DNA of 64,000 nt from Sipunculus nudus. Lineage: Eukaryota > Annelida > Sipuncula > Golfingiida > Sipunculidae. A program made the translations under genes and the position numbers. Position 1 is the stretch's first letter. Each line of letters opens with the position of its first letter. The stretch spans positions 50,013,340-50,077,339 of the forward strand of contig CM049322.1 of the NCBI GenBank assembly GCA_026874595.1, given 5' to 3'. The notes beneath the pieces were generated by a model. That model was not told the origin of the DNA. It made no database searches and worked only from the letters and a program-made list of their open reading frames with translations. Below, one piece after another: positions 1 through 64,000 of the stretch.

Positions 1-1069
1 ATGTCTATTTTATATCCAATGGAAAATGATAAACCACTAAAACACAACAGAGCATCACAACTATTTTGGTATGAGTGAATGATTGAATACTGCATAGAAA
101 TATGCACACGTTCAACAGAACTAATGTGTTAACATGTGTATATATATATATATATATATATATATATATATTATGAAAATAACATAAATATTTATGGCGT
201 AAGACTGAGTGTGGTGTATATATGGGTGAAAGTTTCTTGAGGTTACAAGACTTTCAGGAGTATCAACAGTTTACAGTCAGGGCTGGAGTCCATATTGTCT
301 ATGAATTATAAATGTATTTATGTGATCTGTATAGTCGGATTCGCACATTATACCGATCCTCCAGTCTGTTAGGGTCCATGTATAACATTGAATAAAACAC
401 AGGTATTATACAGAGCAAAATATGAAATAGCCCTATATTGTTACCTTAATACTGCAACTATGTATAGTTGTACATCCAATATAATTATATGAATAAAATA
501 TGACAGGGTTTGGCCATGGTTCAGACTGTAGTTATATAAACCATACATGATTATTATAGCAATATATCCCTTAATCAGCACATGGTGATCTATTGTGGGG
601 CATCCTGTTTGATCAACCATCTTGCGAACAGAAAGAGTCAGCGTCATGTGATCAAATGACCTGATCATGTGATCATTCCCCCATATAATTCAAGTATCGC
701 CTGGTGAAAATGGTCTTGATCATAAAAAAATTGATATAACTTATCACAAGATCAAACATTTCCTTATTCAGTTTCAATGATATTACATTTGAAATTTAAA
801 CAAGTGCTTGCCCCTGCTAATTTGATATCTGATTTCCTACCAACTAGTGTTGTTATCAAGTTATATATATATATCGTCAGCCATCCAGTTTAGCCAGGCA
901 TATAACTTTGTTTTATTATAACCTGCATCTCAAGAAACTCTAAGCAATCAGGCATATGTAGTGAGTGTATTGTGAAGTTTTTTAGGATTAAATAACGGAT
1001 GTAGACGAGGCTTACAGCGGGCTGTAATGTTCCTTCAGATTGCTTTTGTTAATTAATTTCAGGTGGCTT

Positions 1070-1137
1070 TATATATATATATATATATATATATATATAT
1101 ATATATATATATATATATATATATATATATATATATA
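1070..1137. repeat. (TA)n locus 2, unit A
   Basis: Uninterrupted (TA)n of about 34 repeats after aggtggctt. The same locus is only about 8 repeats in form-2 units (8249, 22105, 54978, 62093). Confidence 0.97.
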
Positions 1138-2122
1138 AATGATTAATATATGCTTTCTCATTATATACTTTCTTTGGTTTGATGATCCATATTCATTCAT
1201 TTTGGTTCTATATTAGCTGAGTGGTGGCAGCCATTTTGGGGTAAAATAGTCCTTTCACCAGAAACCCCCAGTTTATTGTGTTATCTCTGTCCGAGTCAAT
1301 ATGATTCTCATCGACGTAGCAGCTGGTCTGACACCAAAAGATCTTTTAAATAAACAATAAAACAGATTTATAATCTTAGCTGTCAGGAAAATGCTGAGCC
1401 TCTTTGGCCGGAGGTCTTTTCTTCATACAGCAGGAAATAATAGAATGCAGCAACTGTTCCTGTTGTGATCAAAACTGATTCCAGCAGGGCCTCTTGTATG
1501 GGAGATTGGAAACTAAGAAGGTTTTAGTTTCATCAGTTAGGTGGGAGAATGGTAGTTTGTGTCATGGCAAAGAGCTGACATGTGCACTGCCTCAGAAGAC
1601 TGTCAGATGCCAATATATAATAACAATGTCACGTCACACTAAAACACAAGGGTTAACAAGACAGACTGTGGTCAGATAGATTATAATGTTACAATAGAGA
1701 TAAGATTTTGGAGAATATAAATTCTCTGAATATTTTTGATAAAAATAGAACATGTAGCAAAATCTTCACACATTCATAAATATACATGAAAATATGAATA
1801 TGTATGAGATTAAAGTATTATATATGATAATAATAATAATGATGAACTTTTAGTCCCGGCAGTTCTGGAGAGGAGTTTAGATATTTATGGCAGCCAGTTT
1901 TAATAGTTTAAATCAAGTGTCAAAATGGATTGTATGATATTTGTACATGAATGTTGAATATGCATGCAGGGAACCTTCAGAGGTACACAGTCAGGATTAG
2001 AGCTACTTTATGTAAATAACATGTACAAATTGGTTATCATTTGCCGTGAACGACTATGGTCATATTTTGTACACATCCATATGTAAAATAATGGTCTACC
2101 AGTGAAAGTTTGTTATCGATAA

Positions 2123-60630: not shown

Positions 60631-63600
60631 ATGTCTATTTTTATATGCACTGGAAAACGAAACAACACTAAAACACAACAGAGCATCACAACTATTTTGG
60701 TATGAGTGAATGATTGAATATTGCATAGAAATATGTACACGTTCAACAGAGCTAATGTGTTTACATAGCCTATATATATATATATATATATATATATATA
60801 TATATATATATATATATATATATATATATATATATATAAATAAATAAATAAAAAATATATATATATATATTCTGAAAATAACATAAATATTTATGTAGAG
60901 ATTTTATGGCGTAAGACTGAGTGTGGTGTAAATATGGGTGGAAGTTTCATGAGGTGACAAGACTTTCAGGAGTATCAACAGTTTACAGTCAGGGCTGGAA
61001 TCCATATTGTCTGTGAATTATCAATGTATTTATGTGATCCGTATAGTCGGATTCGCACATTTTACCGATCCTCCAGTCTGTTAGGGTCCATGTATAACAT
61101 TGAATTAAACACAGGTATTATACAGAGCAAAATGTGAAATAGCCCTACATTGTAACCTTAATACTGCAACAATGTATAGTTGTACATCATAAATAATTAT
61201 ATGAATGTAATATGACGGGGTATGACCATGGTTCAGACTATAGTTAAATTAACCATACATAATTATTATAGCAATATATCCCTTAATCAGCACATGGTGA
61301 TCTATTGTGGGGCATCCTGTTTGATCAACCATCTTGCGAACATAATGAGTCAGCGCCATGTGACCAAATGGCCTGATCATGTGATCATTCCCCCATGTTA
61401 ATTCAGGTATCACCTAATTGTGAGACTATAACGGTGGCGCATGACCATATGACCTTATCATGTGATTATTTGATCCTATTGCTTCACTCAAGATATGACT
61501 ATATATGACTATAATAGTTGTACGATCATGTGACCAGATCTTATGATGGTCTGACCATAATATTCTATAACCACTTGAGTGTATGACTGTATTAGTCAAG
61601 TATGATCATTAAATCCTGATCTTATGATCATTTGGCCATAACAAACAAAGTTCACAGAGTATTTGACTATAATAGTCATATTTGAGGTCACATGGCTATT
61701 CTTGTGAAAAATTGCTTGATATTATGTGACCATGTATAATTACACATTGTTTGATCAGGTGAAAAGGGACATTACTCTTACTGGAGTTAATCAATCAAAT
61801 GTTTTATTTTCACTCTTTGAATTCATGATACCTTTCAATGATTATGTATCAATGTGGTGTTATTAATTATGTGGCGTGTTGTTCTTTGATTAGGTTCTGT
61901 CATATACATGAATGTCAGGCATATACCTTTGTTTTATTATAACCTGCATCTCAAGAAACTCCAAGCAATCAGGCATATGTAGTGAGTGTATTGTGAAGTT
62001 TTTTTAGGATTAAATAACTGATGTAGACGAGGCTTACAGCGGGCTGTAATGTACCTTCAGATTGATTTTGTAAATTAATTTCAGGTAGCTTTATATATAT
62101 ATATATATTAATATATGCTTTCTCATTATATACTTTCTTTGGTTTGATGATCCATATTCATTCATTTTGGTTCTATATTAGCTGAGTGGTGGCAGCCATT
62201 TTTGGGTAAAATAGTCCTTTCACCAGAAACCCCCAGTTTATTGTGTTATCTCTGTCCGAGTCAATATGATTCTCATCGACGTAGCAGCTGGTCTGACACC
62301 AAAGGATCTTTTAAATAAACAATAAAAACAGATTTATAATCTTAGCTGTCAGGAAAATGCTGAGCCTCTTTGGCCGGAGGTCTTTTCTTCATACAGCAGG
62401 AAATAATAGAATGCAGCAACTGTTCCTGTTGTGATCAAAACTGATTCCAGCAGGGCCTCTTGTATGGGAGATTGGAAACTAAGGTGGTTTTAGTTTCATC
62501 AGTTAGGTGGGAGAATGGTAGTTTGTGTCATGGCAAAGAGCTGACATGTGCACTGCCTCAGAAGACTGTCAGATGCCAATATATAATAACAATGTCACGT
62601 CACACTAAAACACAAGGGTTAACAAGACAGACTGTGGTCAGATAGATTATAATGTTACAATGGAGATAAGATTTTGGAGAATATAAATTCTCTGAATATT
62701 TTTGATAAAAATAGAACATGTAGCAAAATCTTCACACATTCATCAATATACATGAAAATATGAATATGTATGAGATTATAGTATTATACATGATAATAAT
62801 AATAATGATGAACTTTTAGTCCCGGCAGTTCTGGAGAGGAGTTTAGATATTCATGGCAGCCAGTTTTAATAGTTTAAATCAAGTGTCAAAATGGATTGTA
62901 TGATATTTGTACATGAATGTTGAATATGCATGCAGGGAACCTTCAGAGGTACACAGTCAGGATTAGAGCTACTTTATGTAAATAACATGTACAAATTGGT
63001 TATCATTTGCCGTGAACGACTATGGTCATATTTTGTACACATCCATATGTAAAATAATGGTCTACCAGTGAAAGTTTGTTATCGATAATATATATATATA
63101 TATATGCAGCCCTGAATTGTGCATGGTATTGATAAATAAATCCATTTAGGCATGCTTGTAATAGTGACCAGTGCACAGTTTTGCCATTTTTTTTTTGCAG
63201 AGCAGAAGGAATTGTATATAAATCTTGTAATTGAAATCTTGTACCAATGCCAGGCTGTGACCTTGGCTAGTTATAATAAAGCTTATTTCCTGTATATACT
63301 GGGTTGGTCTTCTAGTACAAGTTTGTGATATATTCTCATGTCAAGTTGCTGCACTGGATGTCTTTTATGCGTCCAAAACATGTAAACATTTGTTTGATGA
63401 GTTAGAACCCCTCCCTCCAATAATACCAAATGCCATTCAAGAAGTCGGTGGAATTCACTCTCTACTAAACGTAAAAAATCTCGGAATCCGACATCATTTA
63501 TATCTCTTCTGGCAAGCTTTTGGTTATCAACATCTAAGAAAGAAAGGGGGCATGGGGAGAGGGACAGGAATTAGGTTTAAAGGATATTTATCTGTGGGTA

Positions 63601-64000
63601 CCGGTGTTTGCATATACGTGCTGCGATTCTGTCAGAGAATTAGTTCTTTATAAATGCTATTTATGATTATCATTCATAATATTATTTAATTGTTCAGCAT
63701 CAGTTGTCTGATGATCATCAACTTACACAAGAGTCGTAGGGTAAGATTTCCATATGCCTTAACATGCATATGATCACACATGGTATGGTGGTTAACTTAG
63801 AAGAAATAGCAAAGTAATAAAGAAATACATATTTACTTTAGTTGAGTTTAAACATTTTTTTTAACATCTGTTGAAAGCAAGCGGTAAGGTTTTACTATGT
63901 AAATCATTAGTTTACAGCGCAGCTACATGTATATCCCACCCACCTATCACATCTATGTGTCGGCTACATCGTAATTCAAATCTAAAGTCGTTAACAGCAT
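60631..64000 (+). repeat. Tandem unit I (form 2), truncated by the window end
   Basis: This unit follows unit H at an offset of 7,112-7,114 through the front, with the form-2 junction at 61917/61918. It stays B/D-like beyond the point where H switches (atcaacttac, gttgagtttaaac), although gctatttatg near 63654 is A-like. The first (TA)n locus (60771-60871, including AAAT-type interruption) is among the longest of its kind. The array continues past position 64000, so its true extent is unknown. No gene is seen. Confidence 0.9.
60771..60871. repeat. (TA)n with AAAT interruption, locus 1, unit I
   Basis: Longest version of this locus (about 101 nt overall) and without the TATG interruption found in the otherwise sister unit H. 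Confidence 0.95.

Follow-up and report, generated by a model that had tools for sequence, protein, structure and literature searches.

Among 96 human arrays with units longer than 2 kb, one survey counts 53 that hold genes or repeated exons, the other 43 not being listed there as gene-holding, and it describes gene-less megasatellites composed of transposable elements (PMC2588610). The array of Sipunculus nudus analysed here resembles such megasatellites in its tandem units of several kilobases, in the absence of genes reported there for some families, in the transposable elements lying inside and in a spread presumably due to unequal crossing over (PMC2588610). It differs from them, as they are characterized in that survey, in its phylum-level host, its sequence, a clear partition of exchange within the unit and a higher-order repeat built of dimers of the 7-kb unit. 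The proportion of 53 in 96 also shows that the premise of the preliminary description, according to which tandem units of such length usually belong to rDNA, histone clusters or gene-bearing arrays, was too strong. DXZ4, FIRRE and ICCE likewise have locus-specific, kilobase-sized units with no obvious protein gene, but they are described as binding CTCF and shaping the inactive X (PMC6985041). Higher-order repeats of alpha satellite offer a parallel in their diverged monomer classes and in a multi-monomer unit repeated with far higher identity, although, in the descriptions used here, their monomer is ∼171 bp and that of our single ∼173-kb array ∼7 kb. Finally, the human 1q23.3 tRNA array is alike in unit size and copy number (7.3 kb, 9–43 copies), but its unit is reported as GC-rich and bearing tRNA genes (PMC4041453), while ours has a GC content of ∼34% and no tRNA by ARAGORN. 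A literature search retrieved no description of this array or of its exchange partition, which is not proof that they are unpublished.

Self-BLAST and unit alignment resolved the window, the whole 64-kb stretch of DNA that was analysed, into eight complete and two partial units, all on the + strand, as are all features given below in window positions. Complete units measure 6,736–9,448 bp (6.74–9.45 kb), and identity between window units is 93.9–100% over ungapped columns. Eight complete copies had been counted from the start, together with one partial copy; the former number stands, and the partial copies are two, a tail at 1–1137 and a head at 62103–64000. A 60-base unit probe matched the window eight times at ≤3 mismatches, none being expected from 100 shuffles. 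The repeat was correctly said to fill the window, and the assembly search shows that it runs on beyond both ends: the whole array spans ∼173 kb in one contig, with 24 head-to-tail unit starts at a spacing of ∼7.1 kb, all on the + strand, and is thus a macrosatellite (or megasatellite) in the usual sense of head-to-tail units above ∼2 kb in a single orientation, as first proposed. When 2 kb taken from the unit's 5′ half served as query against the assembly, 68 of the 69 listed matches fell inside the array and the sole listed match outside was a 166-bp, 70% relic on C8; it is to this 5′-half query that the term single array refers. A 27-base unit probe had no match in the viral and genome contig collections searched, which is unsurprising for an animal sequence.

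The array occupies 49.91–50.09 Mb of a 61.13-Mb contig, with the nearer contig end ∼11 Mb away, a location that lends no support to the subtelomeric role once suggested. On one side it is bordered by a CBL gene oriented toward it, whose stop codon lies 1.5 kb before the start of the array. The centromeric role also suggested appears unlikely from the sequence, because the ∼173-kb array directly adjoins the CBL gene and the 5′-half query revealed no second array. In the CBL gene the Pfam matches to Cbl_N3 and RING are strong. Two results speak against the assignment to CBL: the UBA domain scores 16 bits, a weak match (cut-off 22.4, E 0.011), and a human UBA piece used as query found no match. 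The idea that each unit represents the last exon of CBL was dropped, as the UBA exon and stop codon of CBL itself lie to the left of the array.

Units fall into classes according to their 3′ half. Unit alignment places in the window the beta-class 3′ end of unit E14 (U0, 1–1137; no substitutions against the tail of U2 over 1,133 aligned bases), the alpha-class U1 (E15, 7,120 bp, 1138–8257), the beta-class U2 (E16, 6,736 bp, 8258–14993), the alpha-class U3 (E17, 7,120 bp, 14994–22113; no substitutions against U1), U4 with a beta-type 5′ half and a gamma-class 3′ half (E18, 9,426 bp, 22114–31539), the gamma-class U5 (E19, 9,448 bp, 31540–40987), U6 with a beta-class 3′ half (E20, 6,802 bp, 40988–47789), U7 and U8 with alpha-class 3′ halves (E21, 7,199 bp, 47790–54988; E22, 7,114 bp, 54989–62102) and the head of the gamma-class E23 (U9, 62103–64000). 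Alignment also detected an internal sub-repeat of ∼0.8 kb in U1 (2530–3340), followed by a second copy (3341–4220) identical to it in 539 of 700 aligned columns. Beta and alpha units are ∼3.6% apart (U1 versus U2), and from E06 to E17 they alternate as a higher-order repeat (beta alpha) ×6, that is, six dimers of ∼13.9 kb in 83,241 bp, the dimer copies being far more alike than the monomers within them. Among five of these dimers, beta units are 0–7 and alpha units 0–11 substitutions apart; the beta unit of the first dimer is 68–71 substitutions away from the others, nearly all of them in its 5′ half.

The two halves of the unit have had different histories. The 3′ half (positions ∼3540–7100 of the unit; 4677–8237 on U1) is inherited clonally in old classes (alpha, beta, gamma and delta, plus a further one), which differ by up to 9.2% as well as by large indels, while in the 5′ half (∼1–3300; 1138–4437 on U1) all units lie within 2% of one another and form a mosaic, the change-over falling at unit positions ∼3000–3500. 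Homoplasy, four-gamete tests and pair distances define this partition. On the 3′-half tree, 86 of 103 informative sites of the 5′ half are homoplasic versus 18 of 418 in the 3′ half, the low 3′ value being partly by construction because the tree derives from 3′ sites. The four-gamete test is unaffected by this circularity: violations amounted to 712 of 4278 pairs of sites in the 5′ half versus 659 of 54946 in the 3′ half among 23 units, and to 677 of 3240 (20.9%) versus 562 of 54946 (1.0%) among 13 representatives. Subsets of 3′-half sites matched for minor count reached at most 5.2% violations in 200 draws with the 23 units, these subsets being smaller than the 5′ set, and at most 2.8% in 200 draws with the 13 representatives. 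The contrast of 20.9% with 1.0% therefore indicates that exchange takes place mainly in the 5′ half and is rare in the 3′ half. Pair distances give the same picture, as 11 of 253 unit pairs have nearly identical 5′ halves and 3′ halves more than 2.5% apart, E14 and E16 against E18 showing no differences in 3261 positions of the 5′ half and 261 of 3129 and 261 of 3125, respectively, in the 3′ half; a further 10 of the 253 show the converse pattern. The 5′ half nevertheless retains some class signal, since pairwise distances correlate half by half (r 0.45).

Both 9.4-kb units of the window contain a HINE-type transposon of 1.9 kb, an element also found dispersed through the genome; it is located at 26578–28461 in U4 and at 36007–37893 in U5, the two copies being 99.7% identical; E23 keeps only a 554-bp remnant, beyond the window. 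The insert has perfect 11-bp subterminal inverted repeats (GCTCAGCTGAC / GTCAGCTGAGC), a GTCC microsatellite and a palindrome GACC-CATA-GGTC directly before its 3′ end, and it sits in a T-rich target (a T-run) without target-site duplication, the empty sites being present in U1, U2, U3, U6, U7 and U8. Termini were T-flanked in all four other genomic HINE-type copies read. Subterminal inverted repeats, microsatellite and 3′ palindrome are shared with HINE (Helentron-associated) elements such as Cg_HINE of the Pacific oyster, as are an inverted repeat beside the 5′ one and the T-rich target without duplication; unlike them, the insert lacks a long central tandem array, and its 3′ inverted repeat is separated from the end by ∼20 nt, less than the 38–60 bp reported for mite HINEs.

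Several other readings of these data have to be weighed. Low divergence of the 5′ half could in principle reflect selective constraint rather than exchange, and a mean pairwise difference of 1.24% there versus 5.67% in the 3′ half fits that notion. We regard it as extremely improbable, however, for constraint would produce neither mosaic sites nor pairs with identical 5′ and diverged 3′ halves, nor would it by itself raise the variation within 3′ classes, which is greater in the 5′ half in all four classes tested. Copy number, classes and exchange analysis all derive from one assembly, and part of the copy number might be an artefact, the identical dimers resulting from double entry of a single dimer or from the unrolling of a repeat. 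E14–E15 and E16–E17 differ by no substitutions, and the duplicated block 1–11621 differs from its second copy at 13861–25477 by three TA-run lengths only; past the end of the block the two diverge, with 53 differing sites in 1.1 kb. Such an error is unlikely, and the array as such cannot be one, because most units differ by many substitutions, by class-specific indels and in whether they carry the insert.

It is similarly unlikely that the unit carries a cryptic gene amplified by the array, whether one for a non-coding RNA or a short, spliced one for a protein. Pfam searches with the six frames of U1 (one of eight complete units) and of the U4 insert (one of two) gave no family at E ≤ 1, which argues against histone or other protein-gene arrays and leaves room for short or spliced genes; PDB sequences compared with the six frames of U1 gave a single chance-level match (E 0.66). 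The eight PDB matches of a 20-aa frame (E 0.006–1.5) were designed repeat proteins in which many weak copies are summed, and were judged to be chance. Over the whole window, the lack of Rfam matches at gathering scores and of tRNAs by ARAGORN led us to reject arrays of rDNA, 5S, snRNA or tRNA genes; a permissive Rfam search of 1–9000 yielded four matches, weak and located in TA runs, the best at E 0.11. Thus the earlier statement that the unit holds no recognisable gene survived Pfam and PDB searches of one unit and Rfam and ARAGORN searches of the window. Codon-position tests of 7 window units and of 23 units formed part of the search for protein genes. Frames of 101 aa (3728–4030, +) and 62 aa (4502–4687, +) are open in all 23 full units, but neither has a codon-position bias (4, 5, 6 and 3, 3, 3). 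In a minus frame at 4100–4327, third codon positions account for 8 of 11 variable sites, yet this frame stands out as the best among 22 and is open in just 17 of 23 units. A peptide-like stretch at 4247–4311 is closed by a stop codon, which is immediately preceded by CTGCAG and followed ∼40 bp on by AATAAA; strong splice-like matches, however, barely exceed those in shuffled sequence, with three donors and four acceptors on the + strand against 1.95 and 1.6 in shuffles, and one donor and four acceptors on the − strand against 1.6 and 1.55, and the splice-site scan found no open internal exon joining them. By analogy with DXZ4, the array might also serve CBL as a boundary in chromatin or as a regulatory block, a very unlikely role in our view. 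Its start lies close to the CBL stop codon and CTCF is reported to bind several mammalian macrosatellites (PMC6985041), but the argument is one of position, and the CpG observed/expected ratio of the unit is 0.46, whereas that source calls the DXZ4 unit CpG-rich.

Taken together, the data make it likely that this is a single-array, gene-poor macrosatellite downstream of CBL, growing and rearranging by unequal exchange concentrated in the 5′ half of its unit. Growth and rearrangement would proceed by unequal homologous exchange between units, through crossing-over and/or gene conversion, mostly at unit positions ∼1–3300 and rarely at ∼3540–7100. Because exchange is so distributed, 3′ halves would be passed on whole, as cassettes attached to 5′ halves that are open to exchange, and this exchange would have produced the (beta alpha) ×6 repeat, with block junctions falling in the 5′ half, as well as swapped 3′ halves between blocks. 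Heterology of the 3′ halves may suppress exchange there. A bolder version, in which the unit is a two-part device whose sequence-specified 5′ hotspot shuffles protected, diverging 3′ cassettes next to the 3′ end of CBL, seems to us distinctly doubtful; if true, the array would generate new 5′/3′ combinations while its cassettes stay intact.

The array is a gene-poor macrosatellite with higher-order repeats, a general kind already known, otherwise ordinary if well preserved, and we infer that it serves no function in itself. Tandem duplication has moreover multiplied a transposon insertion within it. An array of this size, complete in one contig with its flanks, gives a view of exchange inside long repeats, and the sharp passage from mosaic to clonal within one 7-kb unit makes testable the long-standing question of whether heterology switches off exchange between tandem copies or a local hotspot confines it. 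If array length varies between individuals next to CBL, it may in addition serve as a marker.

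A single tandem array occupies the entire window, with unit starts at 1138, 8258, 14994, 22114, 31540, 40988, 47790, 54989 and 62103, all on the plus strand. The window holds eight complete units (U1–U8, 6,736–9,448 bp) and two partial ones, the window units being 93.9–100% identical to one another in pairwise comparison over ungapped columns. The preliminary description of a macrosatellite with a unit of ~7 kb and no recognisable gene was borne out, except that the partial units number two rather than the one counted there. A search of the own genome (1.4265 Gb, 153 contigs) placed the window at 50013340–50077339 of C17 (61,128,531 bp), and searching with 2 kb of the unit's 5′ half recovered 24 unit copies on this contig (E01–E24), 23 covering the full query and one split in two pieces. 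As judged with the 5′ half alone, this is the single such array in the assembly, since 68 of the 69 listed matches fall within it and the sole off-array match among those listed is short, 70% identical and located on contig C8. The array covers ~173 kb, from 49,913,915 to ~50,086,900, its outermost units being diverged or truncated. Since genes lie on both flanks and the nearer contig end is ~11 Mb away, it is interstitial, among genes.

The left flank contains a CBL gene on the plus strand, transcribed toward the array, with one exon matching Pfam Cbl_N3 (E 4.9e-25) and another matching RING (E 6.5e-08); aligned with part of human CBL, its RING pieces reach 74% (73 aa) and 56% (48 aa). A weak UBA match under Pfam's cut-off (L014:6306-6401, E 0.011) lies in a frame terminating with a stop at 49,912,426, 1.5 kb ahead of the array, and a human UBA piece found no match. 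Upstream of the CBL exons, overlapping minus-strand frames at L010:3138-3832 contain a cysteine-rich, minisatellite-like tandem repeat. On the right flank, frames resembling exons lie on the minus strand at 50.092 and 50.097 Mb, the former with no Pfam match, and two plus-strand frames at 50.108 and 50.116 Mb (L028:1404-2828 and L028:8811-9998) carry DUSP, ubiquitin-like and BTB domains (Pfam). These two frames are neighbours, share an unusual domain combination and are apparently duplicated.

Classes were read from an alignment of all 24 units, with blocks defined by the 3′ half (unit positions ~3540–7100). The array begins with four delta units (E01–E04) and one intermediate (E05), followed by six beta–alpha dimers (E06–E17), two gamma units (E18, E19), one beta (E20), two alpha (E21, E22), one gamma (E23) and a partial unit (E24). 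The dimer block spans 83,241 bp, at ~13.87 kb per dimer. Five of the six dimers differ among themselves by 0–7 substitutions in beta and 0–11 in alpha, the first differing from the rest by 68–71 and 10–17, respectively. Between E14–E15 and E16–E17 there are zero substitutions, as is visible in the window when 1–11621 is compared with 13861–25477; this identity is either very recent or in part an assembly duplication.

The two halves of the unit record different histories, with the change-over at unit position ~3000–3500. On the 3′-half tree, more than one change is needed at 18 of 418 informative 3′ sites versus 86 of 103 informative 5′ sites, the low 3′ figure being partly by construction, as the tree was built from that half; on the 5′ half's own tree, 45 of the 103 sites still need more than one change. 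A tree-free four-gamete test was therefore applied, which gave violations in 712/4278 pairs of the 5′ half versus 659/54946 of the 3′ half among 23 units, and in 677/3240 versus 562/54946 among 13 representatives. In 3′ subsets matched for minor count (200 draws each), violations reached at most 5.2% with 23 units, where the subsets were smaller (~64 versus 93 sites), and 2.8% with the representatives. Mean pairwise difference is 1.24% (maximum 1.97%) in the 5′ half and 5.67% (maximum 9.20%) in the 3′ half. In 11 of 253 unit pairs the 5′ halves are nearly identical while the 3′ halves differ by >2.5%, and the converse, 3′ halves alike and 5′ halves apart, occurs in 10; the halves are not fully independent, their distances being correlated (r 0.45).

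Unequal homologous exchange between units is the simplest account. Breakpoints would fall mostly within the 5′ half, where copies resemble each other, whereas the 3′ halves, with differences of up to 9.2% and large indels, would have ceased exchanging and been transmitted as cassettes. E18 pairs a beta 5′ half with a gamma 3′ half, and E05 a delta 5′ half with another 3′ half; both look like direct exchange products. Constraint could also keep 5′ halves alike, but it would predict less variation there within classes, and more is observed in all four (12 versus 7, 4 versus 0, 43 versus 9 and 45 versus 2 variable sites, 5′ versus 3′). Heterology may be what suppressed exchange in the 3′ half, although a hotspot confined to the 5′ half would leave the same picture.

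Units U4 and U5 reach 9.4 kb because each carries a 1.9-kb HINE-type insert (26578–28461 and 36007–37893) in a T-run that is empty in U1–U3 and U6–U8. The insert has perfect 11-bp subterminal inverted repeats, a 5′ inverted repeat, a GTCC microsatellite and a 3′ palindrome (GACC-CATA-GGTC), features that, with the T-run target, are those given for HINEs in PMC4067079 and PMC7492417. Forty of 4,045 candidate genomic copies were scored and all 40 match over nearly the full length; two belong to the array, and the other 38 are spread over 15 contigs at 95–97% identity. Four off-array copies inspected have the same termini and flanking T. Judged by eye, frames at L012:3832-4942, within an intron of CBL, have long segments in common with insert frames, probably marking a further copy. 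E23 retains just the last 554 bp of the insert. The insert-free unit nearest to E18 (U4) is E05, with 93/7486 differences, which indicates that the element arrived by insertion and then multiplied together with its unit.

The 5′ half includes two direct copies of a ~0.8-kb sequence (window 2530–3340 and 3341–4220), an old duplication with 539 of 700 aligned columns identical and a score of 357 versus at most 80 in 200 shuffles. A 166-bp relic of part of this sub-repeat at C8:56384767-56384932 (L035; 119/169 alignment columns identical, ~70%) is perhaps an old SINE-like element, and the sub-repeat's TATAAATGCTATTTATTATT-like end is similar to SINE tails. In the 3′ half, window 7514–7800 holds degenerate sub-repeats of ~81 bp in which CATGTGACC/GATCATGTGATC is frequent; beta-class units lack ~0.3 kb of this region.

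Six-frame translations of U1 and of the insert matched no Pfam family at E ≤ 1, U1 found nothing among PDB sequences beyond one match at E 0.66, and Rfam at gathering scores found nothing in the whole window, a permissive search of 1–9000 giving four weak matches, all in TA runs. The 22 frames of at least 60 aa in U1 were tested for openness and codon-position variation among the 23 full units. Two are open in all 23, with variable sites by codon position of 4, 5, 6 and 3, 3, 3. The minus-strand frame 4100–4327 has 1, 2 and 8 (8/11 at third positions) and is open in 17/23 units, possibly by chance as the best of 22. At window 4247–4311 (+), among the GC-richest spots of the unit and repeated in the other full units, a peptide-like stretch ends in a stop, with CTGCAG before it and AATAAA ~40 bp after; it resembles a last exon with possible acceptor and poly-A signal, a likeness that no other finding bears out. 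The unit is accordingly judged to be gene-poor, although it may contain a short novel gene or an RNA gene.

According to PMC2588610, 53 of 96 human arrays with units >2 kb hold genes or repeated exons, and arrays with units of several kb and without genes are known in man, so the kind of array seen here is already known. Neither this array nor its exchange partition was found described in the literature searched, of which coverage was partial. The array stands out for being complete within a single contig, for its higher-order repeat built of dimers of 7-kb units, and for the sharpness with which exchange is partitioned.
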